Origin: a virus
IMG/VR virus record: IMGVR_UViG_3300046506_000257
Span: 1 to 27,078 of that record
DNA length: 27,078 nt
Strand: one strand, 5' to 3'
Shown: positions 1,401 through 26,775 of the stretch, piece by piece
How positions within the stretch are numbered: the stretch's first letter is position 1
Layout: every line of letters begins with the position of its first letter
Translations under genes and position numbers: made by a program
The notes under the pieces: model-generated
Seen by the model: only the letters and a program-made list of their open reading frames with translations
The model's database searches: none
Told to the model about the DNA's origin: nothing

Positions 1401-3596
1401 TTAGCCTTTGTGGTTGTAGATGTTTTGCGTGGTCGCTTCGTTACGCTTGGAAATGCTTTCCGTCGTGGCGTTGCGGATCTCGACGCGGTTGTCGTTCGTG
1501 ACCGACTGCGAATGGATGGTCGAGTGGGTGTTGTTGACCGATTCGCTGACGGTCTCGTTGTCGCTGAAGGTCTGGCTCTGGTTGTACGACTGCACCCCGC
1601 CGTTGGTGGTGGAGAAGGTGCGCGAATGGTTGGTCGACGAGGTGTTCGCCTTCGACAGCGCGTTGGTCATCGAGGTCACGAGGTTCTGGCTGTTCGCGGT
1701 CGACATGGCGTTGCTGTTGCTGTGCGAGAACGAGGTCGAGACGTGCACCGAACTGATCTTGGCCGCCGCCACCTGGGCGCTGGCCTGCGCCTGTGCCAAC
1801 TGGGCGGCCTGCGCGGCCGAGGCGCCCAGCAGTTCCATGCGGGTGGCGATGCCGGTGCTGGCGACCCCGGCCTGGGCGATTGCGTTCTGGGCCTTGACCT
1901 GGATGCCCTGCATGTCGGCGCCCAGGCCTGCGATCTTGTCGGCCACGCGCTGGCCGGACGCGTACTGTTCGGCGCTCGCCACCATCCTCTCGCCGCCGGC
2001 GGCGATCGCGGCGGCCGCGACGCGGGTCTGGGCCGCGAACTGCGCGATCTGGCTGGCGTAGAGTTCGACCGGGAATTCCTGCTGGCGGAACTGCAGGGTC
2101 GCCTCGGACAGCTTGCCCTCGACCAGCGCGCGGTAGGCCTCGACCTGGGAGGTGTAGCCGGCCACCTCGGCATTGAACAGGTCGGCTTTCGCGTGCTCGT
2201 TCTGCAGCCGCGCCAGGTAGCCCTGCACGGCCAGGCCGGCGCCCTTGGCGCGCGCGGCGGCGCCCTCGACCTCGCTCTTGTACAGCTCGGTGCGGTTCTT
2301 GTTGTTGGCCACCGCCAGCGAGACCGCCGCCACGCGTGCCTTGTAGACATCGGCGATCGCCTTCACCCCGTCCACCTGGGCCGTGTACTGCTGGGCCAGC
2401 TGGACGTTGAGCTGGCCCAGCGCCTTGACCGCTTCCAGCTCGGCCTTGTACAGCTCGAGGCGCGACAGCACGGCGCTCAAGCGGGCCTTGAACACCTCGG
2501 CCTTGGCGCCGAAGGCCTGGACGTCGGCCTGGTACAGGTTGACCTTGGCGTCGAACAGCTGCATGGCGGCCTCGACCTGGTAGCGCGCCGCGTCCAGGGC
2601 GCGCTGCTGGACCTGGTTGTACAGGCCGATCAGCTGGCCTTCGAGCTGCATGGCGTTGGAGAAGGCGAACGCGAAGTTGGCCTGCTGCATGCGGGCCTGG
2701 GCCACCATCACTTCGCGGCTGGCATCGCGGTCGTGCTCGATGCCGGTGTTGACGGCGCCCTGCACCAGGCGCACCAGTTCGCCGCCGGGCAGGGAGAAGC
2801 CGCGCGCGGCGACCTGCTGGCTGGCGTCGTCGACCAGGCGGGCGCTGGCCACGGCCTGCTCGTCGACGCTCTTGTCCCACAGCCGTTCCTCGATCTCGGG
2901 CGGCAGCGCCGACCAGCCGCCCTGCACCAGGCCGAGCAGGCGGGCGTTGACATCGGCCAGCAGGTCGGACTGGTACTCGATCTCGGCCCAGGTGAAGGCC
3001 AGGTCGGGCGGCAGGATCGGGCCGGGGGCATCGTCGGCGAAGGTCGGCACGTCGAAGCCGGGCGCGTCCGGCAGCGCCAGCGCGACCAGGTCCGGCACGG
3101 CGGGCAGCGTGAAGTCGGGTTCGACCGGGGGGCCAACGTCGGCCAGCTCGGGCGGGCTGGGCACCAGCGCGTCGAACGGGTCCGGCAGCGGCACGTCGAT
3201 CAAGAGCGGCGGCACCAGGTCGTACTGGGGCGGCTCGATCTGGTCGAGCGAGATCGGGGCCGGCGTCGGCGGCAGGGCCGGCGGTTCCGGCAGCGTCACC
3301 GAGGTATCCGACGGCGGCGCCACCCCGTCCACGCCGGTCAGCGTCACCGGCGGGAGGTCCAGTGCCGGCGGCACGAACTCGGGCAGCTGCAGGTCGGTGG
3401 ACGCGAGCGACTCGATGGCGGCCAGGCCCAGCGCCATCGCCTGGTCCGACAGGCTGCTGGAGCTGTCTTTCAGGATCGTGCTCAGCTGCTGGACGATCTG
3501 CTGTTCCGGCGGCGGCGGCGGCAGGTCGACTGGCGGCGGCGCCGGCAGCTGGTCGAGCGGGGAGGGCTGTGGGTCGGTGTCGGTGGGGTCGCTCAT
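1401..3596 (-). CDS. Large coiled-coil virion protein, paralogue B (731 aa)
   Basis: The ATG at 3596 follows GAGGA and lies 10 nt downstream of the stop of its paralogue at 3607-5940. Three zones are visible. Residues 1-200 are proline-rich with repeated LPxxP and acidic turns. Residues 205-610 are a long Ala/Gln/Glu-rich helical body with coiled-coil character. Residues 612-731 form a Ser/Thr/Asn/His-rich tail of low complexity. The body aligns collinearly with the upstream gene: EYQSDLL (207) matches DYQSQLL, ARGFSLP (264) matches ARGFAMP, and FDAKVNLYQADVQAF (348) matches FNAQVNLMRADVAAF, each followed by KAEVFKARL. Similar proteins occur in other phage genomes as uncharacterised ORFs, as far as I recall. 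A structural or ejected role is inferred from operon position; there is no catalytic signature. Confidence 0.85.
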   Translation of the reverse strand: MSDPTDTDPQPSPLDQLPAPPPVDLPPPPPEQQIVQQLSTILKDSSSSLSDQAMALGLAAIESLASTDLQLPEFVPPALDLPPVTLTGVDGVAPPSDTSVTLPEPPALPPTPAPISLDQIEPPQYDLVPPLLIDVPLPDPFDALVPSPPELADVGPPVEPDFTLPAVPDLVALALPDAPGFDVPTFADDAPGPILPPDLAFTWAEIEYQSDLLADVNARLLGLVQGGWSALPPEIEERLWDKSVDEQAVASARLVDDASQQVAARGFSLPGGELVRLVQGAVNTGIEHDRDASREVMVAQARMQQANFAFAFSNAMQLEGQLIGLYNQVQQRALDAARYQVEAAMQLFDAKVNLYQADVQAFGAKAEVFKARLSAVLSRLELYKAELEAVKALGQLNVQLAQQYTAQVDGVKAIADVYKARVAAVSLAVANNKNRTELYKSEVEGAAARAKGAGLAVQGYLARLQNEHAKADLFNAEVAGYTSQVEAYRALVEGKLSEATLQFRQQEFPVELYASQIAQFAAQTRVAAAAIAAGGERMVASAEQYASGQRVADKIAGLGADMQGIQVKAQNAIAQAGVASTGIATRMELLGASAAQAAQLAQAQASAQVAAAKISSVHVSTSFSHSNSNAMSTANSQNLVTSMTNALSKANTSSTNHSRTFSTTNGGVQSYNQSQTFSDNETVSESVNNTHSTIHSQSVTNDNRVEIRNATTESISKRNEATTQNIYNHKG

Positions 3597-3606
3597 GTCA
3601 TCCTCG

Positions 3607-5940
3607 TCAGTCGCTGTGCGTGGTGCGGTCGATGCACTCTTTGGAGTTGGTGAAGTTCAGGCTCTTGTTGTACGAGGTGGTCGAGGTGTAGTGGTTCGAG
3701 GTCGAGTCGTTCGAGTTGTTGCTGAACGCGGTGGTGGTGGTGTTGCTCATGCCGCGGTTGCGATGGCGCCCGGCGACGTTGCTGACCACGATGTTGTGGG
3801 TGGTGCCGGCCACCGTGTTGGTGTTGTTGTTGGTGCTGCTGTTGGTGCTGGTCGAATCGACCGTGGTAGTGCTCCTGACGATGCTGTTCGAGGTGTTGCT
3901 GCTGTTGCTGTTGCTGAACGAGCTGGCGGTGCTGGTCATGGTGTGCATCGAGTTGATCGAGGCGGCGGCGGCGCCGAGCTGGCCGGAGATCTGCGCGGCC
4001 GAGCGGGCCGCGGCCTCGGTCATCTGGGAGCTGATCTGGGCCGCCCCGAGTGCCTCGCGCGCCGTTTCCACGCTCAGGGTGGCCGCGCCGATTGCGGTCT
4101 CGGCGCTGACCTGGGCCACTTTCACGCCGACCTCAGCGTTGTCGATCGCCACGTTGTTGTTGATGACGATGGCGCGCACGCGCGCGCTGTACTGCCCGGC
4201 GATCGCACGCACCTGCTCGGCGGCCGCGGCGGCACTGGCGGTGTAGGCTTCGGTATTGCTGCGCAGCGCCTTGAGCGGGAAGTCGACGCCTTCCTTGATC
4301 TGCAGGTCGACCAGGCCGGTCTTGGCCTTGACCAGGGCGTCGAAGGCGCCCACGCGCGAGCGGAACGCGCCGACCTGCTTCTCGAACAGCGCGGCGCGCT
4401 CGGCCTGGCCGCGCACGCTGGCGGCGTAGCGGTCGTAGTCGTTCTGCATGGCGCCGACCTGCGCCTGGTAGGCCGCGATGCGGGCGTGGTACTGGTCGGC
4501 CCTGGCCTTGTTGGCGTCCGCCATCTGCTGGGCGGCCTCGACCTGGGTGCGGTAGGTGTCGGCCAGCATGCGCACGCCGCCGATGCGGGCCTGGTAGATG
4601 GCCAGCATCTGGCCGTTGACCTCGCCGCGCACGATCGCCGCCTCGATCCGGGCGCGGTACACGGTGACGCTGGCCAGCGCCTGCTGCAGCCTGGCCTTGA
4701 ACACCTCGGCCTTCATGGCGAACGCGGCGACGTCGGCGCGCATCAGGTTGACCTGGGCGTTGAACAGCTGGATCTCGAACCCGATCACGGCCTTGGCCGC
4801 GTCCAGCGCGCGGGCCTGGACCGCGTTGTGCTTGTCGAGCATGCGTGCTTCGGCCGAGACCGCGCCCTCGATCGCAAAGCGCAGGTTCTGCTGGGCCAGC
4901 TGGGCGCGCTCGACGGCGACCGCGCGCGCCAGGCTGTTCAGGCGGGTGGCGCCGCCGTGGCGGGCCTGCTCCACCAGCCGCGCCAGGGTCGCCTCGGGCA
5001 TCGCAAAGCCACGCGCGCGCAGCACGCGCTGCGCTTCGCCGACGGCGCGCCCGGTCAGGCGCGCTTCGCGCTCGGCCGCGCGGTCCCACAGCGCCTGCTC
5101 CAGCTCGACGTTGATGCCGGTGGCCTGGTCGTCCAGCACCAGCTGGGCCAGGCGCTGGTTCATCGTGTTCAGCAGCTGCGACTGGTAGTCCACTTCCTGG
5201 TAGGCGAAACTGGTGCCGGGCAGCTCGGGGCGCGCGCCCAGCTCGGCCTCGAACAATGGCAGCTCGATCGCCGGCGGCTCCGGGATCGCCAGCTCGATCA
5301 GGGTCGGGGCCGGCGGCAGCACGAAGTCGGGTGGCGGCGGCGCGCTCACGTCCAGCAGCAGCGGTTCGTCCGGCATCAGGACCGTGATCGGGTCGGGCAG
5401 CTCCAGGTCGGCGATCATCGGCGCCTGCAGGTCGTACACTGGCAGCGGCGGCAGCGACGGCAGCGACCCGCTACCACCGGGCGGCGGTGGCGGCGGTGGC
5501 AGCGGCGGGAAGTTGGCGTCCCCGCCACCACCACCGTCGGGCGGCGCCCCCAGCACCGGCAGCGACAGCGGCGGCGGCGCCGACCCCGAGGCCGTCACCG
5601 GCGTGAAGCCGGTCATCACCGACCCCAGCCCGCCGAGCGCTCCCAGCGCCGCGTCCTGGGCGGCCTGCGAGGCACCCATGAAGCTGTCGACCGTGCTGGT
5701 CAGGTTGGCAGCATTGTCGGGGACGCCCCAGTTGCCGCCCGTGAACCCGTCGTTGCGGGTGTCCGTGGGAGTGGCGTCGCCGTTGTCGACCGGGTCGAAC
5801 GGCAGCATCGGCGGCAGCGGCGCGAACGCGGGCATTTCCGACAGTTGCCCCGGTTCCGGCAGCGGTTCGAGCGGCGGCAGCGGTTGCGGCGGCGGCAGCG
5901 GCGGCAGCTGCTCGCCTTCAACGATGAATGAGCAGGTCAT
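3607..5940 (-). CDS. Large coiled-coil virion protein, paralogue A (777 aa)
   Basis: The ATG at 5940 has AAGGA five nt upstream and sits 12 nt after the stop of the preceding gene. The architecture copies that of the next gene. Residues 1-225 are rich in proline runs (including a PPLPPP-type run and a Gly5 tract around 136-140). Residues 245-660 form an extended Ala/Gln-rich helical body. Residues 662-777 are a tail made largely of Ser, Thr and Asn. The tail is confirmed as coding by the unbroken frame and by the matching tail of the paralogue. Sequence identity to the neighbour is concentrated at residues 245-435, while the heads and tails share only composition. No enzyme motif is seen. Function is unknown; a rod-shaped virion or ejection component is the most economical guess. 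Confidence 0.85.
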   Translation of the reverse strand: MTCSFIVEGEQLPPLPPPQPLPPLEPLPEPGQLSEMPAFAPLPPMLPFDPVDNGDATPTDTRNDGFTGGNWGVPDNAANLTSTVDSFMGASQAAQDAALGALGGLGSVMTGFTPVTASGSAPPPLSLPVLGAPPDGGGGGDANFPPLPPPPPPPGGSGSLPSLPPLPVYDLQAPMIADLELPDPITVLMPDEPLLLDVSAPPPPDFVLPPAPTLIELAIPEPPAIELPLFEAELGARPELPGTSFAYQEVDYQSQLLNTMNQRLAQLVLDDQATGINVELEQALWDRAAEREARLTGRAVGEAQRVLRARGFAMPEATLARLVEQARHGGATRLNSLARAVAVERAQLAQQNLRFAIEGAVSAEARMLDKHNAVQARALDAAKAVIGFEIQLFNAQVNLMRADVAAFAMKAEVFKARLQQALASVTVYRARIEAAIVRGEVNGQMLAIYQARIGGVRMLADTYRTQVEAAQQMADANKARADQYHARIAAYQAQVGAMQNDYDRYAASVRGQAERAALFEKQVGAFRSRVGAFDALVKAKTGLVDLQIKEGVDFPLKALRSNTEAYTASAAAAAEQVRAIAGQYSARVRAIVINNNVAIDNAEVGVKVAQVSAETAIGAATLSVETAREALGAAQISSQMTEAAARSAAQISGQLGAAAASINSMHTMTSTASSFSNSNSSNTSNSIVRSTTTVDSTSTNSSTNNNTNTVAGTTHNIVVSNVAGRHRNRGMSNTTTTAFSNNSNDSTSNHYTSTTSYNKSLNFTNSKECIDRTTHSD

Positions 5941-12286: not shown

Positions 12287-13888
12287 TCACTCCTTCCAGT
12301 CGTCGTAGGCGCGCTTGATGGCGTCGAAGATCTCGCTTGGTGCGATGTCGACCTGGCACTGCGCGGCGCCGGTGGCCGCGTCGATGCTGCAGTAGCTGGC
12401 CCCGTAGTGGAGACGGTGGCAGGGCCAGCACGGCGTGCCGGCCGGCTCCAAGGTGTCGGTCATGAACCAGTGCTTGGTCAGGTTTTCCTTCGAGCTGTGC
12501 GAGAGCATGACGATCTTCGATACGTCCTCCTCGAACGCCACGGCGTTCAGCACGCCGGTCTCCGGGCCGATCACGAGATCCACCTTCTGGGCCAGGGCCA
12601 GGGTTTCGCGGATGGTCTGGCGGCCGGACTCGCGGTACACGCGCGGCTCCAGTTCCCAGCCGCACTCGAGCACCTGGCAGGCCTCGTCGCCGGTCAGGAT
12701 CACGACCGCCTCGGGCATTTCCAGCAGCACGCGCGCGATCACGGCGTCCATGTGCGGGGTCCATTTATGGACTGACGAGCCGGCCAGCGCCCACATGATG
12801 GTGAACACCCTGGGGGTCGGCACGCCGATCATCAGGTCTTTGGGCGCGCGCGCCAGCTGGATCGCGGTCAGCAAGCCGCGGGCCTTGCCGGCTTCTTCCG
12901 GGGCGGGGTAGAACCTGGCCTCGGAGTAGTACGGCAGCTCGCACAGGAAGCTGGTCCATTCCAAGTAGTTCTTGTTCAGCACCACCTGGCGCACGGCCTG
13001 CGGCCACATGTGGTTGGCGCGGCCCGGCATGGCCAGCAGGGTCCCTTCGACCGACTCGGACAGCTGGATGAACTTGTCGTAGCGCCTGGCGACGGCTTCC
13101 CAGTACAGCGGCAATTCATGATTGGGCACCAGGTCCGGGTCGAGGATCACGAAGTCGTCGATGTGCGGGTCATGCTTGACGATGTCCTGGCCGGACGGCG
13201 TGGTGATGACGGTCACATGAAAACCCTCGCGCTTGAGCTGGGGCAGGATGTTGGCCATCTGGATCATGTCGCCGAAACCCCCGCAGCGGAACACGGCGAC
13301 GGTTTTCTCGGGGCGCGGGTTTTTATAGGTCGAGCGGCAGTCGATCTCGGCGAGCTTCTGCACAACCAGCAAAAACGAATACTCCATGCCCTGGTCGCGG
13401 GTCTCGTTGACCACCACGTCGATGCCGGTCTGGCTGCTTGCTGCCACGCTGGCGATGTGGCCGAGGACGTCGTCGGGCGAAAAATCGTGCTTGTGGTCGG
13501 GGTTGGCGCCCTCGGTGCCGATTCTCGGGTACAGGTCGCGGTGCGGCAGGTACAGCACCAGGTAGCCGCCGGGTTTCAGCACGCGCCACCATTCGGTGAG
13601 GGCCTTCTCGGTGTCGACGATGTGTTCCAGCAGGTGCGAGGAGAACACGGCGTCGCAGGCGGCGTCCTCGAAGTCGGCCAGGTCGGCGCAGTCGGCCACC
13701 TTGACGTCGGGCTTGATCTGGATGCCGAACAGCTTGGTATCGGCGCAGCTGTCCACGCCCACGACGTGTGGCAGGCACTTGCGCGGACCGCACCCGAGAT
13801 CGAGCACGGTGCCGCGCAGGTACTGCACGACGTCCCAGACCACCTTGCGGGCTTCGTCGCCCATCGGGTCATCCGGGCGCCAGGTCAA
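12287..13888 (-). CDS. Class I SAM methyltransferase fused to a GT9-type (heptosyltransferase-like) glycosyltransferase (533 aa)
   Basis: Residues 1-185 are a Rossmann methyltransferase. Motif I is LDLGCGP (29-35), then GVDS (43-46), DAVFSSHLLEHI (79-90) and LKPGGYLVLYLP (104-115). Residues 195-533 look like a GT-B glycosyltransferase of family GT9. There is an N-domain opening VAVFRCGGFGDMIQ (197-210), a nucleotide-sugar domain with VILTGDE (396-402), and the GT9 hallmark VDLVIGPETGVLNAVAF (436-452). A Cys-rich end (C487, C490, C500, C511) resembles Cys-containing tails of heptosyltransferase relatives. The start is a TTG at 13888 overlapping the previous stop (TTGA). An in-frame ATG at 13864 would lose eight residues, but the RPDDPMGDEA segment is one I recall as conserved in phage-borne homologues. 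Substrates are unknown; virion or host-glycan modification is inferred. Confidence 0.85.
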   Translation of the reverse strand: MTWRPDDPMGDEARKVVWDVVQYLRGTVLDLGCGPRKCLPHVVGVDSCADTKLFGIQIKPDVKVADCADLADFEDAACDAVFSSHLLEHIVDTEKALTEWWRVLKPGGYLVLYLPHRDLYPRIGTEGANPDHKHDFSPDDVLGHIASVAASSQTGIDVVVNETRDQGMEYSFLLVVQKLAEIDCRSTYKNPRPEKTVAVFRCGGFGDMIQMANILPQLKREGFHVTVITTPSGQDIVKHDPHIDDFVILDPDLVPNHELPLYWEAVARRYDKFIQLSESVEGTLLAMPGRANHMWPQAVRQVVLNKNYLEWTSFLCELPYYSEARFYPAPEEAGKARGLLTAIQLARAPKDLMIGVPTPRVFTIMWALAGSSVHKWTPHMDAVIARVLLEMPEAVVILTGDEACQVLECGWELEPRVYRESGRQTIRETLALAQKVDLVIGPETGVLNAVAFEEDVSKIVMLSHSSKENLTKHWFMTDTLEPAGTPCWPCHRLHYGASYCSIDAATGAAQCQVDIAPSEIFDAIKRAYDDWKE

Positions 13889-17959: not shown

Positions 17960-18264
17960 CACTCGCCCTCCTGGCTGGAAAGTTCAGCCTCGGCGGCCTG
18001 GCCGGCGTGGCGCGCTTCTTCCAGCCACTCCCCGAAGCTGGCGGCGCGGCGCACGATCAGCTGCAGTTCGCGCATGTAGTTGACGTCGCTGGCGTCGGCC
18101 TCGGCCAAGAGTTCGAGCGCGGCCTGTTTCTCCTGCGCGGCGCGGCCGAGCAGGTACTGGCCGACGGCGCCGTCCATGAAGGCCTTGATGTCCAGGCCGA
18201 ACTGCACGGTGTGCAGCAGCTGGCGCACCTCTGGCGGGAACTGCGAGAAGTCGATCTCGATCAT
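17959..18264 (-). CDS. Conserved alpha-helical phage protein (101 aa)
   Basis: The ATG at 18264 overlaps the portal stop by four bases. The sequence is helical and acidic: MIEIDFSQFPPEVRQLLHTV, then IKAFMDGAVGQYLLGRAAQE, then ELQLIVRRAASFGEWLEEA. This pattern (one helix ending in YLLxRAxxE, then SF-WL) is common directly downstream of portal genes in the phages I know, so it may contact the portal or the procapsid. No catalytic motif is present. Confidence 0.72.
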   Translation of the reverse strand: MIEIDFSQFPPEVRQLLHTVQFGLDIKAFMDGAVGQYLLGRAAQEKQAALELLAEADASDVNYMRELQLIVRRAASFGEWLEEARHAGQAAEAELSSQEGE

Positions 18265-21200
18265 GCGTTGTAGTGCTCCACGAGTTTGTCGAAGTAGTCA
18301 CGGCCGATCGCCTCGACGACGTCGGCCGGGATGATGAAGTCGCCACCCTGCAGGCCCACCGGCTCGACGGCGGCCGGCGCGTCCGGCATGCCTTCGGCCG
18401 GGGTGTGGAACTGCTGCACCAGGTGCTCGAAGAAGTCCTGTCCCAGCGCCTCGACCACGGCGGACGGGATCAGGTATTCCCCTGCCGAGACCTGGGCCGG
18501 CTGCTGGCCGTCGATCAGGGCCGGGATCGAGTCGGAGGTGCCGGTGCCCGGACCCTGGAGCAGGCCGCCGTCAGCGTAGCCAGGCGGCTGCTGCGTGCCG
18601 GTTGTCTTGCCGAGGTATTCCGGGAGGGCATTGACGGCGGTGTCGATCTGCGGTGCTTTCTTCGACAGCGTGGCCATCGCGCGCTGGGCGGCCGTGTGGA
18701 TCGGCGCCTTGACCAGCTTGTAGGCCGGCAGCAGGCCGATGGCATCAAGAGCGGCCGTCCCGTACTCGCCCTTGTGCAGGTCGCTGGCCACGTCCATTGC
18801 CGAGGTGGCGACGTTCGTCCCCGGCATCACGTCCAGGAACAGCTTGGTCTTCGGGTTGTCGTTGGACAGCTTGTCGTAGGCGTTCAAGGCGCGGCCCGGC
18901 AGGCTGGCCGCCTGCTGCACGCCGTTGCTCACCGCGGCGGCAACACCGTTCCAGGTCTGCTGCACCGGGTTGCCAGCGCCATACGGGTCCTGGTTCGGGA
19001 CCAGGCCGCCGTCGGCGAACGGCTCATAGTGCGTCGAGCGGTCGTCGTTGGTGGCGTCGGTCAACCCGTTCAGGCTCACGCCGATCGGGCTGGGCGTCTT
19101 GAGGCCGGATTCGGGCCGGTACATGCGCAGGTTGTCGGCCTGGATGCGCATGCGGTCCAGCGTGTCGGCGCGCTCGTCCTGGTCGACGCCGAGCATGCCG
19201 CCGTTGGCGTAGGCCGCCTGCGCGATGGTGCTGGCGCCGACCGAGTCCGGGCGGGTGGTCTCGATGCCCTGGTGTGCCCCGGTCCCTGCCGTCGCCGGCA
19301 TCGGCGGCAGCGGGTTCAGGGTGGTCGACGCTCCCTGCCCCGGCATGAAGGCCACGCCGGTGCGGCGGTTCTTGACCGCTTCCAGGCCGAGGCCGGCGGC
19401 GGGTGCGGCCGGCATCGGGAAGTTCGGGTCGATGCCCGAAGGCGTTGGGGGGCGGTAGCCGGCGGCCTTCATCAGCTCGTCGGCGATCGGGGCCACGCCC
19501 GGCACCGCGGCGATGACCTCGGCGGTCTGCATGGCCGAGAACTGCGCTTCGGACCCCTTCTTGACGGCGTCGGCCGCGCTGACGCGGTCCTTCACGCCGA
19601 TGCTGGCCACCTCGGCGTCGAGCTTGCGGATCTGGGCGGCGATCAGGGCCGGGTCGACCTTCTGCGCCAGCTGCTGCTGCAGCTGGGCCACTTGGTCCTG
19701 CAGGCGCTTGACCATCGGGTCGCTGCCGTCGAAGTTGAAGAAGCGGGCGCCGTCCTTGTAGCCGAGCTTGCCGAACAGTTCCTTGACCACTTCCTCGACG
19801 TTCAGGCCCAGCTGCACCAGGCCCTCGTTGGCCAGCATGTTGCCCAGCGCGGTCATGCCGTCGATGAACTGCTTGACCTGCTCGGTCGGGTTGACGGCGC
19901 CCATGCCGACGTTCACGTTCAGCGTGAACTCGTTCATCAGGTGCTCGTCGGTGATTCTATCGACCCCGAAGCGCTGCAGGTCGGCGGTCTTGCCGCACAG
20001 CGCGATCAGGGTGTCGTCGGTCTCGTAATACTGCTCGAGCAGGACGATCTGGCGCAGCACCGGCTCGACCCAGGTCTCGCAGAACGTGCGCAGCTGGTAG
20101 CCGCTGACCTGGTTGGCGCCGGCGTCCAGCATCTGCATGCCGCCGACCGTCTCGTTCAGCTTGCGGTTCGACTGGACCGACGACCCGGAGAAGGTGCCGG
20201 CGACGTCGTCGAAGTCCAGGTTCAGGACTTCCTGCTCTTTATACGAGGAGCCGGTGACGTCGTTGAACTCGACCACTTTCACATCGTCGATGTCCTGCAC
20301 CAGGGTGACGGAGCCGGGCACGTTGCGCGTGACGGACCTGAGATCGACCTGTTTGTTGCGGCGCGCAAAATAGCGCTTGTTCATGGCCAGCTTGACGTTG
20401 TCGATGCGCTGGTTGGCGACCTCGTTGATCTCGGCCTGGACGTCCTTGGTGAGGCGCGGCACCGACGACGGGTACAGCTTGTGGGTTTCGACCACGGCGG
20501 AACCGACGACGTAGGGGCGGCGGCCGTGGAAGTAGACCTGCTCGAGCGGCACCGGGTCGGACAGCAGGTGTTCGCAGCCGAGGGTGTAGTAGCAGTAGTC
20601 GACCTCGTCGACCTCGACCACGTTCTTGTGGACCCACACCACGTTGAAGTTGTTGTTGGCCTGGGTCTGGTACTTGGAGTCCGGGCGCGGGCTTTCGCGC
20701 TGCAGGCGGATGGTGTCGCCGTAGGTCTTGGTCGCGCCCATGATGGTCGCTTCCGGCAGCGTCTTCCACCTGGCCTCGCCGGTCTTGGGGTCGACACTGC
20801 GCATGCGCGCCTTGACGTCCTTGACGTACATCGGGATCAGCTCGATCAGGTAGGGGCTTGTGCCGACCGGGTCGGTCCAGTCGGCGCCCGGGTCGAAGCG
20901 CAGGTTCTCGATCGGGATCAGGCGGATCTGGGGGCGGTCGATGCCCTTCTTCTCGTTGTACTGCCAGTATTGGTAGCTCGCCACCACGCCGACCGTCTGG
21001 GCGTCCTGGTAGGCGCCCACCAGCGTGAGGAACCAGGGGATGGATTTCGTCAGGCGGTGCTGCAGCAGCGCGCCCATGACGGCGGCGCTGGCCAGCTGCT
21101 CTTTGTCGTCCTCGTCCTGGGCGGTGACTTTGACGACGTCGTTGGAGGCGAAGAAGGCCTGCGCGGCGGCGGCCTCGTTCTTGCGGATCGTGGTGCGGGT

Positions 21201-21416
21201 CTTGGGCCGGAACAGTTTCGACCTGCCCTTGTTGGCGTCGGCCAGGTACTTCGAGCCGGCCGGGTGCTGGCCCTGGAACTGGCGCAGGTCTCCCTCGATC
21301 TGGGCGCGCACGGACGAATCGAACCAGTTGGTCGAGGCGGAATAGGCGTCACGCGCCAGGGCGACCCAGTCTGGCGGGGCCTCGGCGGGGGCGGCGGTGT
21401 TGTTCTGGTCGTCCAT
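18261..21416 (-). CDS. Portal protein, P22-like, with unusual C-terminal extension (1051 aa)
   Basis: The ATG at 21416 has CGAGG four nt upstream, 10 nt after the preceding stop. Residues 20-150 and 310-560 carry the podovirus portal pattern: RSKLFRPKTRTTIRKNEAAA, GAYQDAQTVGVVASYQYW, VPRLTKDVQAEINEVANQRI, and NVGMGAVNPTEQVKQFIDG. A helical barrel/coiled coil follows (565-620). Dodecameric portals form the DNA gate and carry the terminase and neck. P22 portal is about 725 aa, so this protein is about 300 longer. Residues 690-1051 contain repeated Y/F-A-D/N-GG turns (736, 799, 948), GPGTGTSDSIPALIDG (955-970) and two (A)GEYLIPSAVVEALG/GDFIIPADVVEAIG units followed by D(F/Y)F--LV. These motifs are usual in tape-measure or internal virion proteins. 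Confidence 0.88.
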   Translation of the reverse strand: MDDQNNTAAPAEAPPDWVALARDAYSASTNWFDSSVRAQIEGDLRQFQGQHPAGSKYLADANKGRSKLFRPKTRTTIRKNEAAAAQAFFASNDVVKVTAQDEDDKEQLASAAVMGALLQHRLTKSIPWFLTLVGAYQDAQTVGVVASYQYWQYNEKKGIDRPQIRLIPIENLRFDPGADWTDPVGTSPYLIELIPMYVKDVKARMRSVDPKTGEARWKTLPEATIMGATKTYGDTIRLQRESPRPDSKYQTQANNNFNVVWVHKNVVEVDEVDYCYYTLGCEHLLSDPVPLEQVYFHGRRPYVVGSAVVETHKLYPSSVPRLTKDVQAEINEVANQRIDNVKLAMNKRYFARRNKQVDLRSVTRNVPGSVTLVQDIDDVKVVEFNDVTGSSYKEQEVLNLDFDDVAGTFSGSSVQSNRKLNETVGGMQMLDAGANQVSGYQLRTFCETWVEPVLRQIVLLEQYYETDDTLIALCGKTADLQRFGVDRITDEHLMNEFTLNVNVGMGAVNPTEQVKQFIDGMTALGNMLANEGLVQLGLNVEEVVKELFGKLGYKDGARFFNFDGSDPMVKRLQDQVAQLQQQLAQKVDPALIAAQIRKLDAEVASIGVKDRVSAADAVKKGSEAQFSAMQTAEVIAAVPGVAPIADELMKAAGYRPPTPSGIDPNFPMPAAPAAGLGLEAVKNRRTGVAFMPGQGASTTLNPLPPMPATAGTGAHQGIETTRPDSVGASTIAQAAYANGGMLGVDQDERADTLDRMRIQADNLRMYRPESGLKTPSPIGVSLNGLTDATNDDRSTHYEPFADGGLVPNQDPYGAGNPVQQTWNGVAAAVSNGVQQAASLPGRALNAYDKLSNDNPKTKLFLDVMPGTNVATSAMDVASDLHKGEYGTAALDAIGLLPAYKLVKAPIHTAAQRAMATLSKKAPQIDTAVNALPEYLGKTTGTQQPPGYADGGLLQGPGTGTSDSIPALIDGQQPAQVSAGEYLIPSAVVEALGQDFFEHLVQQFHTPAEGMPDAPAAVEPVGLQGGDFIIPADVVEAIGRDYFDKLVEHYNA

Positions 21417-21426
21417 AGGGCCTCGG

Positions 21427-21777
21427 TTAGCGGTCGAACACGAAGTCGCCGGCGAAATTGGTTTTGAGCTGGGTGTACTGGGCCTCGCTGAACTGGCCAC
21501 GGCTCAGGCGGAAGCGCTCGAGGATCTCGCCGCCGGCGCGGATCGTGTCCTTCTTGAGTTCCGACGCGGAGTACATGTTCGTCAGCAGCAGGCGGTAGCC
21601 CCACTGGCCGGACAGCATCAGGTCGTGGATGTTGGCCACGCCGCCGTCGACGTTGATCGCCCACAGGTGGCCCGGGTAGTGGGTGTTCAGCGTGTCGGCG
21701 ATCTCCTTGGCCAGGATCATGTCGTTGGCGCTGGTGCTCATGGCGCTGTCATCCAGGCCGACGAGGAGTTTGCTCAT
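21427..21777 (-). CDS. Conserved phage protein upstream of portal (116 aa)
   Basis: The ATG at 21777 has TGAGG upstream, beyond the palindrome at 21803-21834. The N-terminal half has MILAKEIADTLNTHYPGHLW, and the middle has AINVDGGVANIHDLMLSGQW. The C-terminal part, GGEILERFRLSRGQF, is helical and ends DFVFDR. I recall homologous short proteins next to podovirus portal genes. It has no membrane span. The role is unknown; a virion or head-packaging helper is plausible from position alone. Confidence 0.7.
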   Translation of the reverse strand: MSKLLVGLDDSAMSTSANDMILAKEIADTLNTHYPGHLWAINVDGGVANIHDLMLSGQWGYRLLLTNMYSASELKKDTIRAGGEILERFRLSRGQFSEAQYTQLKTNFAGDFVFDR

Positions 21778-21855: not shown

Positions 21856-22014
21856 CTAGTCGGGGTAGAAGTCCGGCTCGGTCTCGCTCTGCACCAGGCC
21901 GTTTTTCTCGGCGTCCGACAGCCACAGGTACTGCTCGAAGCCGTACAGGGCGCGGATCGATTCCGGCAGCGCCTGGTACTCGCGGTAGACCAGGCTGTCG
22001 CGGTCGGTCGTCAT
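21856..22014 (-). CDS. Small acidic phage protein (52 aa)
   Basis: The ATG at 22014 overlaps the upstream stop (TGATG), implying coupling since no good ribosome-binding site precedes it. The peptide begins MTTDRDSLVYREYQALPESI, continues RALYGFEQYLWLSDAEK and ends in an acidic tail (SETEPDFYPD). Similar short proteins in phages contain an LPESIRALYxFExYxWL pattern, as far as I recall. The function is unknown. It precedes the palindrome at 21803-21834. Confidence 0.65.
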   Translation of the reverse strand: MTTDRDSLVYREYQALPESIRALYGFEQYLWLSDAEKNGLVQSETEPDFYPD

Positions 22015-25000
22015 CAGGCGGTGCGCGGCACGATGGCGAACTGCGGATCGTTGTAGGGCGCCTTGAGGGCGCGGCCGTCGAACACCAGCCAGACGTTGGC
22101 GCCCTGCGGGTGGTCGGAGGTGGCAACGTAGGCGAACGCCGGCTGGGCATCGGCCGGGTAGCCGTCGTCGGAGGCGGAATACTTCGGCATCTGCCCCGGT
22201 ACATAGGTGCCGTAGTCGCCGAACACGGTGGTGCAGGCGTCGGCCATGGCCTGGCTGGCGCAGGCGGTGGCGCGGATGCGCGGGTCGACGGTGGCCTCGT
22301 AGACCTGTGCCCAGGTGGTGAATATCGGGCCGTTGGCGGTGGCCCGCACGTCGAGCGAGTACGGGGTGCCCATGATCCAGCAGTAGTCGCTGCCGGAGAG
22401 CATGCGGCCGACCGCGAACTTGGCCTTCCAGGCCAGGAACGGGCGCGCCTTGGTGAAGCCCAGCTCGGCGACCATGCCCACGCTCGACGTGATGAAGTCG
22501 TCCTGCCAGGTCGAGACGCCGACGCTGCCGACGCCGCTCAGGCTGCCGGGGTAGATGATGGCGCTGGTTTCGTTGTTGTGGACGAAGCCGAGGGCGTTGC
22601 CGCTGACCGGGTCGGCGCTGTAGGTGTGCATCGCGTTGAGCTGGTCGAGGTTCCAGTCCAGCGAAGCGAGGCAACGCTGCTTGATCGGGTCGCCTTCCGG
22701 GCTGATGTAGGCGGTGTGCGCCAGCGTGCGCAGCAGCCATGCCAGGCCGCGCGCCTGCTGGTGGAACACGGCGCCGTTGGCGAAGTGCCGGTAGCCCGGC
22801 AGGTGCTGGATCATGTTCCACTCGTTCCAGGCCTGCAGCTCCTCCAGGTGGATGTAGTCGCCGGTCAGCAGGTAGGGGATGTAGCTGTGGTTCGGCTCGT
22901 GGGCGTCGTTCGGCACGTTCGCGTTGTTGTTGGCGGCGGCCGGGATCATTTCGTGCAGCCCGGTGGCGCCGTTGATGTCGTCGCTGCTGCTGCCCTTCTG
23001 CAGGCAGACATACGGGTAGCTGCGGATGTCGACCCAGTTGTCGGTGGCCTTGTTGCGGAAGTGGGTCGGCCACGATCCGGCCAGCATCGAGGTGCGCACC
23101 GACACGTTCTTGGCGTCCCTGTTCCCGGTCAGCAGCCAGTTCACGCACCAGCCGGGGTTCAGGCCGATATCGGGGCGCCCGCCGGTGCCGCCCTGGGCGG
23201 CGGTCATGACGCCCGGCTGCATCGGCTCGTTCCTGCCTGCGAGCAGGGTGACGTAATTGGCGATCACCGAGGTCGACTGGCCGGCGTTGCGGTCGTAGTT
23301 CGGCACCGCGCGCGAGGCGAGCACGTACGGGATGTTGTGGCGGACGTGGGCCGGGCTGGCGCCGTTCCACCAGAAGGTGCGGGTCCAGCGCGCCTTGTTG
23401 TAGTGCACCAGGGCGCTCTTGCTGTAGGTCGCATCGCCCGGCACCGTCACCGTCACGTCGTAGGTCACGTCGGCCGGGTTGTTGGCGATCCAGGCGCTGC
23501 CGCCGGTCGTGGCCGAGGTGTTCGGGATCACCCAGGAGTTCTCCAGCGTCACGTCGACCCGCGCGCGATTCAGGCCGGCATAGGCACGCACGTAGAAGCG
23601 CGCGTGGATCAGCGGGTGCTGGTTGTTGCCGGCGTCGGTCAGCGGCCCGCTGACCAGCCACTCGTTGGCGACGCTGCCGGCCAGCCACGGCTTGACGCTG
23701 CCGGTACTGGCCAGCTGCGACAGGCGCGCGGTGTAGGTCACGCCACCGGCGACGATGGCGACCGTCGCTTCCAGGCCCGCGGCGACCTGCGCGGCGAGGG
23801 TGGCGGTGGGTGCGGCGTCGGCGCTGGCATCGCGGCGCAGCATCTTGACCGGCTTGGCTTCGCCGGCCGTCATAGCCGGCACCACGCCGGAAATGATCGC
23901 GTGGCGCACCGAGCCGTCCGGGTGCAGTGCCTTGACGTCGAGCTGGGCCGCGATGCTGCTGTTGTCGGCCAGCTTGAGCGTGATGCCGGCGCCGCTTGCC
24001 GGCAGGTGGCCGACCGCGAACGGGTGGCCCAGCGTGAACGGGACATTGGCTGCGCTGCTGGTGGCGGTGTTCTCGACCGTGAAGTCGGTGATCTGGGCGC
24101 CGACGGCGATCGCGGTGCCGGTCTCGGGCGGTTGCGGGGCGGCGCCGCCCGCGCTGCCGAACGAGGCGCTGTGCTGGGGCTGGGCGGTATGGACGGTGGC
24201 GTCGATGCCGGCCTGCGCGACGATCGCCTGGCGCGGCAGGATGGCGAACTGCGCCTGGTAGCCGTAGTCTGGCTTGGTCGGGCGCGCCATGTACTTGGCC
24301 CAGGCGGCGCCGCCGCCGGGGTAGCCGACGTCGACGGCGGCGGCCAGGGCCGGCTGGTAGTCGGCCGGGTAGCCGTCGGTCGAGCTGGGATAGCCGTCGA
24401 TGTCGCCCGGCAGCAGGTTCATGCTGCTGGCCAGCGCCAGGCGCTGCGCCGAGCCGCACGGGTATTGCTGCTGCTGCGGCGAGACGGTGAAGGCGAAGCA
24501 CTCGCCCAGCGTGGCGAAGAACGGCGAGGTGGCGGTGGCGCGCACGCCCAGCGCGTAGGTGCACGAGTTCTGGACGCACACGGCCGGGTCGTTCATGCGG
24601 CCGACCTGGAACTTGGCCTTCCAGAACAGCAGGCGCTTGGTCGAGGCCAGGCCCAGCAGCTCGTAGCCGTGGCCGAGCGACTGGGTGAAGAAGTCGTCCA
24701 TCCACGGCGCGATGCCGTTGCTGGTGCCGCCGTTGATCGGGTAGGACAGCGAGTAGCCGTTGACGATGATGCCCAGCTGGTTGACATAGGCCGGGTTGGG
24801 CGCGTCGATGTAGGCGTCCAGATACCACTTCATGTTGTTGTCGTACCAGGTCGCGAAGTGCGGTTTGAGCGGGTGGTCTTCCGGGGTGATCGCCACGCAC
24901 TCGGCCATGGTGCGCAGGCTCCAGCCCTGGCCGCGCAGCTGGTCCGCGCGGACGTGCGCCTTGGCGAAGTCGCGGTAGTAGGGGTTGTCCTGGTAGTGGT

Positions 25001-26654
25001 TGAAGGTGGCCCAGAAGTGCAGACCCTCCAGGTAGAACAGGTCGCCGGTCAGCAGGTACGGCAGGTAATAGATGTCCGGCTGGTGCGAGCTGTCCGGGCC
25101 GGCGGTGGTGACGGTCGACAGGATAGGCAGTTTCTCGTTCTTGCCGGTGGCCGGGTTGACGCAGTCGCCGGGGTTGCCCAGCAGCGAGGCATACGGGAAG
25201 TTGATGACCGACAGCGGGTAGCCGCGGCCGGGGCCGCTGCTGTCGTCGCGCCGGCACATCGGCCAGCTGCCGCCGATGTCGCCGGTGGCCAGTGCGATCG
25301 CCTTGGCGCGCTTGTCCATCGACAGCACGGTGGCCACATGGGTGTCCGGCATGATGCCGATGTCGGGGCGGCCGCCGGTGGTGCCCATCGCCGGCTGCAG
25401 GCGCCCGAACTTCATCGGGTCGAACTTGCCGCTGGTGAGGTCGGTGGCGAAGCCGGCCAGCACCGACTCCGGGATCGTGACGCTCTGGTCGTAGTTCGGG
25501 ATCTGGCGGCTGGCGATCAGGTAGGCGGTGTCGTGCTTGATATGCAGGCTTGGCGCGGTGCCGATCCAGTAGGTGCGCTTCCAGCGCGCCGCCGGGGTAT
25601 GGACCAGGCCGGTCTTGCTGTAGTAGGTGGTGGTGCCCGCCGACAGGGTCACGTCGTAGACGATGTCGGCGGTCGAGGCGTACGCCTTGCAGTGCTCGAT
25701 CACGTAGTCGACGCGGGCCTGGCCGGTGCGGGAAACGCGCACCGAGAACTGCGCCGTCAGGGTCGGGTGCGGACCGGCGGGGCCGACGAACGGCACGTTG
25801 AAGATGTAGTCCGAGCAGACCGGGCCGGCGAACCAGGTGTCGTAGGCGGCGCCGGCGGCAGTGGCGGTGTAGGTGGTGCCGCTGATGACGACGCTGGCCG
25901 AGGGCAGCGTGGCCGGCAGGCCGACGTTCGGGGCGGCGGCGGCCGCGGCGGCGCGCTTCATCGACACGGTCTGCGAGGCGGACGCGGCCAGGGTCGGCAG
26001 CACGCCGCAGACGATGGCGTGGCGTACCGAGCCGTCCGCATGCAGCGCCTTGACGTTCAGCTGCGAGGCGATGCTGGTGCCGTCGGGCAGCTGCAGGTCG
26101 ATGCCGGCGCCGGCCGAGGGCAGGTGCCCCAGCGCGAACACATGGCCGAGCGAGAACGGCTGGTTGGCGAGCGCGCCGGCCGAGGTGTTCTCCAGCTTGA
26201 AGGTGGTGATCTGCGCACCCATGGCGATCGGCGTGCCGGTCTGCGGCGGGTCGTTGGCCGCGCCGGTGCTGGCGTAGCCGACGCTGCGCTGGCCCTGGCG
26301 GCTCGCGGCGCTGGCCACGGCCTGCGGCGCGGTGCCGTTGACCGGCGCGAGCGCGTGGCTGGCCTGCGCCTGGCTGGCCGTGATGCTGGTGTCGGTGCTG
26401 ATGTTCTCGCTGGAGGCGGCGGCCAGCACGTCGCTGCGCTGGGCCTGGCGGGTGGCGACGGCGACTTCCTGGATCGGCGCGATCGGGGTCGGCTGCGAGT
26501 ACAGCGTGGTATTGATGTCGGTCCTGAGCGTGCGGCCACCAAAGGCGTAGTCGAGCGTCGGCGGGGCGTTGAAGTTCGCGCTCGGGTCGGCCATGCCGAC
26601 TTCCTCCGACCACAGGCGGGTCGAGAAGCTCGGCTTGGTGCGGTCGTCACTCAT
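22014..26654 (-). CDS. Tandem-duplicated RIFT-barrel/alpha-alpha-toroid tail protein, candidate depolymerase (1546 aa)
   Basis: The ATG at 26654 has GAGGA six nt upstream and overlaps the end of the preceding small ORF. After a Ser/Thr/Ala-rich N-terminal leader (1-138), two homologous units follow: about 139-810 and 845-1546. Paired landmarks are GTPIAMGAQITTF (140) with GTAIAVGAQITDF (846), KALHADGSVRHAI (202) with KALHPDGSVRHAI (908), TGGRPDIG (426 and 1157), PYLLTGD (532 and 1260), FWKAKFQVGRM (677) with AWKAKFAVGRM (1408), and QFAILPR (802) with QFAIVPR (1538). The KALHxDGSVRHA segment and a later YLLTGD helical region suggest the RIFT barrel plus alpha/alpha toroid of the PcRGLX/YetA rhamnogalacturonan-lyase family (PL26). 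In a phage this would be a receptor-polysaccharide lyase. The family call is tentative; the duplication is certain. Confidence 0.7.
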   Translation of the reverse strand: MSDDRTKPSFSTRLWSEEVGMADPSANFNAPPTLDYAFGGRTLRTDINTTLYSQPTPIAPIQEVAVATRQAQRSDVLAAASSENISTDTSITASQAQASHALAPVNGTAPQAVASAASRQGQRSVGYASTGAANDPPQTGTPIAMGAQITTFKLENTSAGALANQPFSLGHVFALGHLPSAGAGIDLQLPDGTSIASQLNVKALHADGSVRHAIVCGVLPTLAASASQTVSMKRAAAAAAAPNVGLPATLPSASVVISGTTYTATAAGAAYDTWFAGPVCSDYIFNVPFVGPAGPHPTLTAQFSVRVSRTGQARVDYVIEHCKAYASTADIVYDVTLSAGTTTYYSKTGLVHTPAARWKRTYWIGTAPSLHIKHDTAYLIASRQIPNYDQSVTIPESVLAGFATDLTSGKFDPMKFGRLQPAMGTTGGRPDIGIMPDTHVATVLSMDKRAKAIALATGDIGGSWPMCRRDDSSGPGRGYPLSVINFPYASLLGNPGDCVNPATGKNEKLPILSTVTTAGPDSSHQPDIYYLPYLLTGDLFYLEGLHFWATFNHYQDNPYYRDFAKAHVRADQLRGQGWSLRTMAECVAITPEDHPLKPHFATWYDNNMKWYLDAYIDAPNPAYVNQLGIIVNGYSLSYPINGGTSNGIAPWMDDFFTQSLGHGYELLGLASTKRLLFWKAKFQVGRMNDPAVCVQNSCTYALGVRATATSPFFATLGECFAFTVSPQQQQYPCGSAQRLALASSMNLLPGDIDGYPSSTDGYPADYQPALAAAVDVGYPGGGAAWAKYMARPTKPDYGYQAQFAILPRQAIVAQAGIDATVHTAQPQHSASFGSAGGAAPQPPETGTAIAVGAQITDFTVENTATSSAANVPFTLGHPFAVGHLPASGAGITLKLADNSSIAAQLDVKALHPDGSVRHAIISGVVPAMTAGEAKPVKMLRRDASADAAPTATLAAQVAAGLEATVAIVAGGVTYTARLSQLASTGSVKPWLAGSVANEWLVSGPLTDAGNNQHPLIHARFYVRAYAGLNRARVDVTLENSWVIPNTSATTGGSAWIANNPADVTYDVTVTVPGDATYSKSALVHYNKARWTRTFWWNGASPAHVRHNIPYVLASRAVPNYDRNAGQSTSVIANYVTLLAGRNEPMQPGVMTAAQGGTGGRPDIGLNPGWCVNWLLTGNRDAKNVSVRTSMLAGSWPTHFRNKATDNWVDIRSYPYVCLQKGSSSDDINGATGLHEMIPAAANNNANVPNDAHEPNHSYIPYLLTGDYIHLEELQAWNEWNMIQHLPGYRHFANGAVFHQQARGLAWLLRTLAHTAYISPEGDPIKQRCLASLDWNLDQLNAMHTYSADPVSGNALGFVHNNETSAIIYPGSLSGVGSVGVSTWQDDFITSSVGMVAELGFTKARPFLAWKAKFAVGRMLSGSDYCWIMGTPYSLDVRATANGPIFTTWAQVYEATVDPRIRATACASQAMADACTTVFGDYGTYVPGQMPKYSASDDGYPADAQPAFAYVATSDHPQGANVWLVFDGRALKAPYNDPQFAIVPRTA

Positions 26655-26775
26655 CGGGTTCCTCTGGGATCGGCAGCGGTTGCGGGGGTAGCGAGGACGG
26701 CGGCAGGCTGTCGAGCCAGGCCACGAAGTCGGGGGATGGCAGGAACGGCGCGGGCGGGAACGCGCCGCCGGCCAT
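26647..26775 (-). CDS. Tiny proline-rich ORF (42 aa)
   Basis: It runs from an ATG at 26775, which shares one base with the preceding stop (TGATG), to a TGA at 26647 that overlaps the start of the large tail protein. The peptide reads MAGGAFPPAPFLPSPDFVAW and continues LDSLPPSSLPPQPLPIPEEP. The composition (Pro-rich with an FVAWLDSLPP helix-like motif) and perfectly coupled boundaries argue for a real small gene. The alternative overlapping frame (to 26651) is Arg/Pro/Cys-rich and looks like a shadow. Function is unknown. Confidence 0.5.
   Translation of the reverse strand: MAGGAFPPAPFLPSPDFVAWLDSLPPSSLPPQPLPIPEEPDE

Follow-up and report, generated by a model that had tools for sequence, protein, structure and literature searches.

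Modular phage depolymerase tail spikes combine an N-terminal attachment module with a C-terminal enzyme module (PMC8262889). Dpo7 (gp18) of phage phiIPLA7 carries two unrelated catalytic domains, a pectin lyase and a peptidase, in one chain (PMC4658415). Here we describe a putative spike gene in a 27,078-nucleotide stretch of virus DNA (IMG/VR record IMGVR_UViG_3300046506_000257), hereafter the window, whose product bears two homologous heads. The top structural matches of its second head are to the exo-rhamnogalacturonan lyase PcRGLX (PL26; PDB 5XQ3, 5XQG, 5XQJ and, with substrate, 5XQO), at about 10% identity. The only named phage record containing this head family is gp39 of EBPR siphovirus 1 (JF412302), annotated as a hypothetical protein, which shows a single partial head match at 28.6% identity.

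A probable spike gene with two homologous heads

The spike gene is one open frame of 1546 codons, encoding 1546 amino acids, which runs on the minus strand from 26654 to 22014 (Table 1). A first-pass annotation of the DNA had proposed an unbroken frame at 22014-26654, which was confirmed, and had given no strand. The gene is placed in the virion structural gene block, as modular tail spikes are: it lies two small ORFs from the portal gene, and the capsid and head-closure genes then follow. The portal and capsid proteins are similar (42-56%) to their counterparts in Vibrio phages of ~50 kb, a likeness that does not fix the host. The 42-residue ORF upstream of the spike is also found in the phage contigs L004, L005 and L008, and the 52-residue ORF downstream of it also comes after the single-headed spike of L004.

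Table 1. Features of the spike gene and its neighbourhood in the window.
Feature	Positions	Strand	Remarks
Whole spike gene	22014..26654	-	ATG start at 26654, stop at 22016-22014, 1546 aa
N-terminal anchor, residues 1-52, TRLWSEEVGMADP...	26499..26654	-	common to spikes with other heads
Stalk/linker, residues 53-130, TRQAQ/SRQGQ units	26265..26498	-	longer in relatives, with more repeats
Head 1 (copy 1), residues 131-812	24219..26264	-	of the type that eight same-anchor phage relatives carry singly
Inter-head linker, residues 813-836	24147..24218	-	
Head 2, first beta (RIFT-like) domain, residues 837-940	23835..24146	-	phage-type part of the mosaic
Head 2, beta-sandwich and helical toroid-like body, residues 941-1546	22017..23834	-	divergent, nearer bacterial homologues
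Upstream small ORF, 42 aa, MAGGAFPPAPF...	26647..26775	-	overlaps the spike start by 8 bases
Downstream small ORF, 52 aa, MTTDRDSLVYREYQALPE...	21856..22014	-	its own ATG overlaps the spike stop
Portal protein (SU10-portal type)	18261..21464	-	next large gene, context only

Other genes of the window were also observed. Two neighbouring large structural genes on the minus strand, 1401-3596 and 3607-5940, are paralogues (35% over 507 columns, E 1e-72), each ending in a long Asn/Ser/Thr-rich C-terminal tail, and the product of 1401-3596 matches phrog_10969. Within the structural gene block, the minus-strand gene 12287-13888 encodes a methyltransferase domain (PF08241, E 1.7e-14) fused to a region of ~350 residues that looks glycosyltransferase-like by eye. 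The minus-strand gene 3-1385 encodes an Ala/Pro/Gln-rich protein with recurring units of ~30 residues, LRxxLxxAAPQxxxDAxAVxxRL, as read by eye from the translation.

Copy 1 (residues 131-812) and copy 2 (residues 837-1546) share 38.9% identity over 718 columns in blastp (E 2.8e-151) and 41.5% identity over 672 aligned pairs in MAFFT, and their local alignment score was 1180, compared with 46 ± 6 for 200 shuffles. The duplication of an enzyme of ~690 residues is real and whole-length, and the alignment bears out the first-pass proposal that a single tail-type protein carries two homologous enzyme heads. The motif pairs said there to recur about 700 residues apart do so, with an offset of 706 residues early in the copies (PPQTGT at 136 and PPETGT at 842, ALHADGS at 203 and ALHPDGS at 909) and of 728-738 residues later on, because copy 2 carries insertions. 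The further suggestion that the duplication extends into the linker held for GAAxxPPxTGT, which stands directly before each head, but not farther upstream, where the similarity is not significant: the inter-head linker has only one TxQxQ-like unit (from residue 823), its similarity by itself gave a p of about 0.43, and no statistical support was found for a duplicated linker beyond GAAxxPPxTGT.

Fold of the heads and their relation to PcRGLX

When ten members of the head family were scanned against Pfam, the only match was to PcRGLX_1st (PF19501). Copy 2 scored 21.6 bits at residues 867-920, just below the cut-off of 22.1 bits (E 1.9e-4), and the homologue L051 exceeded the cut-off with 27.3 bits; PF19501 is also present in B. 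subtilis among the control genomes. The central beta sandwich (PF21345) and the C-terminal alpha/alpha toroid (PF21346) matched none of the family members scanned. In the genome of Massilia sp. 9I, two bona fide PcRGLX-family proteins hit each of the three PcRGLX Pfam domains, with 474-627 bits for PF21345 and PF21346. Sequence searches of the PDB returned chance-level matches only, and nothing credible was found in NCBIfam for the head family or in PHROGs for the window spike protein. Alignments with the true PcRGLX proteins by hhalign were too weak to place catalytic residues.

An AlphaFold model of copy 2, built on an alignment of 100 homologues, reached a pLDDT of 93.5 and a pTM of 0.95. 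Strands dominate residues 1-270 of the copy and helices dominate after about residue 290, so that, as in PcRGLX, beta domains are followed by a helical toroid-like domain. When the model was compared with the PDB using Foldseek, the best 11 matches were all PL26 PcRGLX chains (E 4e-9 to 1e-6). Their probability was 1.00, with TM-scores of only 0.2-0.43 and rmsd values of 16-23 Å, which may reflect a loose alignment or a different packing of the domains. A model of copy 1 from a seven-sequence alignment had a pLDDT of 41.9 and was set aside.

Based on these matches, the PcRGLX-like fold guessed in the first-pass annotation is supported as a distant fold relationship only, and strict membership of PL26/PcRGLX/YetA is not upheld, as no match was obtained for two of the family's three defining Pfam domains. 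We read the head family as using a PcRGLX-like scaffold and do not file it as PL26, because only PcRGLX_1st matches, and marginally, whereas true members score so highly in the other domains.

Head exchange among phage relatives and the origin of head 2

About 20 phage relatives carry one head per chain, and eight of them have the N-terminal anchor of the window spike. In these eight IMG/VR phage contigs (L004-L011), the same anchor and stalk are followed by one PcRGLX-like head that is nearest to head 1 (60-75% identity, versus 36-40% for head 2); in L010 an unrelated enzyme-like DUF4874/DUF4832 region is added. The anchor is joined to another large domain in L012 and L013 and to a beta-helix in L014. 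It is thus common to PcRGLX-like, DUF4874/DUF4832, beta-helix and unclassified heads, and it adjoins the portal gene. Judged from the sequences, such head exchange behind one anchor is the look of a tail spike or receptor-binding protein, whose virion-docking part would be residues 1-52.

Two of these architectures deserve separate mention. L010 (8001-12170), with its PcRGLX-like head, repeats and DUF4874/DUF4832 region, represents another way to two enzyme-like heads per chain. L012 (8001-11330) and L013 (8001-10925) combine the anchor with a long TxQAQ repeat stalk and a head of ~750 residues for which no credible Pfam match was found.

A wider profile search covered 32 viral loci, several on contigs already found, and the best 80 of 112 bacterial loci, and among these two heads in one frame occurred only in the window. 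This result supports the view that the design is unusual, as no other relative with two homologous heads in one chain was found. Nor did a search of the open-access literature, within the limits of its wording, turn up a phage protein in which homologous enzyme heads stand in tandem.

In phylogenetic trees, copy 1 is nested among the single-headed phage spikes, and the long branch of copy 2 attaches close to the base of the phage clade. Over its first ~100 residues, copy 2 shares 62-67% identity with copy 1 and L004, against a bacterial mean of 32-43%, while from about residue 121 most segments are equally near or nearer to bacterial homologues. A change-point was located at copy-2 residues 104-127 (protein residues 940-963) from 78 informative columns (permutation p 0.001), with phage-type and bacterial-type columns in a ratio of 12:1 before it and 16:49 after it; the pattern was absent from ten other phage heads. 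When the parts were analysed separately, the first part of copy 2 grouped with the phage heads (SH-aLRT 98.6), although the trees do not separate a position nested in them from one sister to them (p 0.62). In the copy 2 model this switch lies where the first beta region gives way to the second, and we infer that head 2 arose through recombination close to a domain border.

The tandem had previously been taken for a duplication of one enzyme in place, and this part of the first-pass annotation is contradicted by the mosaic copy 2 and by the trees, which reject the two copies as sisters (AU p 3.9e-11) and also reject a grouping of the copy 2 body with the phage heads (p 2.1e-7). Both rejections rule out a recent in-place duplication. 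An in-place duplication followed by fast divergence of copy 2 would account for the GAAxxPPxTGT linker and for the closeness of the first ~104 residues to copy 1 (63%), but fast divergence alone would not bring the copy 2 body closer to bacterial homologues than it is to copy 1, the relation seen in most segments, and we consider this origin very unlikely. An assembly chimera of two spike genes appears just as improbable: the tandem is known from one contig of a metagenome-derived virus record, yet the frame does not break at either join, near 24.1-24.3 kb and 23.7-23.9 kb, GC3 hardly differs between copy 1 (0.965) and copy 2 (0.949), and the stop codon of head 2 overlaps the start of the same small gene as that downstream of the single-headed L004 spike. 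Moreover, copy 2 alone as a query against viral contigs retrieved no close relative and no other contig with the head 2 body.

Predicted function and comparison with known systems

Bacterial homologues occur in Massilia, Noviherbaspirillum, Undibacterium, Herbaspirillum and their kin, and in Polyangium and other myxobacterial bins. They have one head per chain and mostly start with a lipoprotein-like or Sec-like leader, as read by eye. When flanks of at most 6 kb were searched for genes related to the neighbours of the two L054 homologues, 22 of the best 80 (of 112) bacterial loci were near exopolysaccharide genes. The neighbours encode the XrtA/PEP-CTERM histidine kinase PrsK, an EpsB-type sugar transferase and an MBOAT acyltransferase, and they include TviB/TviC-like UDP-aminouronate enzymes, whose scores are below the curated equivalog cut-offs, so that the exact sugar is uncertain. 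A beta-eliminating lyase needs uronate in the polymer. Because the neighbour genes suggest a uronate polymer, which such a lyase would require, cleavage of host exopolysaccharide appears to be the likeliest role of the phage spike.

As a cellular parallel to the tandem, L054 of Massilia sp. 9I (genes at 2922 and 5665) and L075 (genes at 5593 and 8290) each have a pair of head homologues in adjacent but separate genes.

Both heads retain the conserved residues of the family to a large extent. Of 96 columns with conservation of 95% or more across the 100 homologues, 93 are retained in copy 1 and 84 in copy 2. All fully invariant columns are kept in both copies, including R, H, Y, D-D and K of the helical part; in copy 2 they include R1200, H1252, Y1261, R1302, R1309, D1385, D1386, K1410, R1417 and Y1432. 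H524, Y533 and R574 are the copy 1 counterparts of H1252, Y1261 and R1302. Copy 2 departs from the consensus at 17 of the 115 most conserved columns (median 2), which makes it the second most deviant of 100 members, and the function of head 2 may therefore be relaxed or altered.

Based on these observations, we suggest, with a probability of roughly 0.6, that the gene encodes a modular tail spike of a podovirus-like phage with two homologous PcRGLX-fold heads in series, both predicted to cleave exopolysaccharide. The short N-terminus would dock the spike to the virion and the Q-rich repeats would form a stalk. Head 1 would be the standard head of the phage lineage, and head 2 may have been added behind it as a phage-type linker and first beta domain followed by a divergent body, which is closer to enzymes whose genes Massilia-type bacteria often carry near those for their own exopolysaccharides. 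A uronate-containing host exopolysaccharide would most likely be bound and cleaved by each head, probably by beta-elimination, and the phage might benefit by getting through slime of two different compositions to the cell, or by gripping one polymer at two points. More tentatively, the spike may have gained dual specificity when an exopolysaccharide enzyme of host type, placed behind a phage RIFT domain that was used again, was spliced in line with the head already there; the two homologous heads would then be lyases of different specificity, belonging to a family not yet described as polysaccharide lyases.

It is unlikely that only head 1 is an enzyme and that head 2, a decayed or repurposed enzyme, serves as a carbohydrate-binding module that raises avidity or widens adsorption. 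Its deviance at the conserved columns and its long branch would fit such a role, but copy 2 keeps every fully invariant column. We find it similarly doubtful that the heads are hydrolases, or another carbohydrate-active class on a shared toroid scaffold, rather than beta-eliminating lyases. In the Foldseek comparison, GH38 enzymes came after PL26, and GH88 and GH105-type proteins were matched with weaker scores; with these toroid-type hydrolases among the matches, lyase chemistry is not fixed. The invariant adjacent aspartates (D653-D654 and D1385-D1386) would suit a hydrolase, and the head sequence is far from PL26. However, PL26 supplies all of the best 11 structural matches, PcRGLX_1st is the sole Pfam match, and the neighbouring TviB/TviC-like genes indicate a uronate polymer.

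Phage spikes and Massilia-type exopolysaccharide loci have in common an apparently uncharacterised enzyme family, probably acting on exopolysaccharides, for which aminouronate-containing exopolysaccharides are candidate substrates. The second homologous head, apparently gained by recombination near a domain border, would offer a way to test how phages broaden or shift their polysaccharide specificity while the old one is kept.

Compared with known systems, the Massilia/Oxalobacteraceae homologues, some of them in XrtA/PEP-CTERM exopolysaccharide loci (e.g. L054, L076 and L113), have the same full-length domain, at about 35-46% identity, as a secreted protein or lipoprotein with one head and without phage anchor or stalk. 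The single-headed spikes of L004-L009 and L011 share the anchor, the stalk and head 1 (60-75%) and are flanked, where checked, by the same small genes on both sides, but lack the second head. Unlike PcRGLX, the window spike places two heads in one phage chain and has no match to PF21345 or PF21346. Finally, whereas the two domains of Dpo7 are unrelated, the two heads of the window spike are homologous and are not beta-helices.
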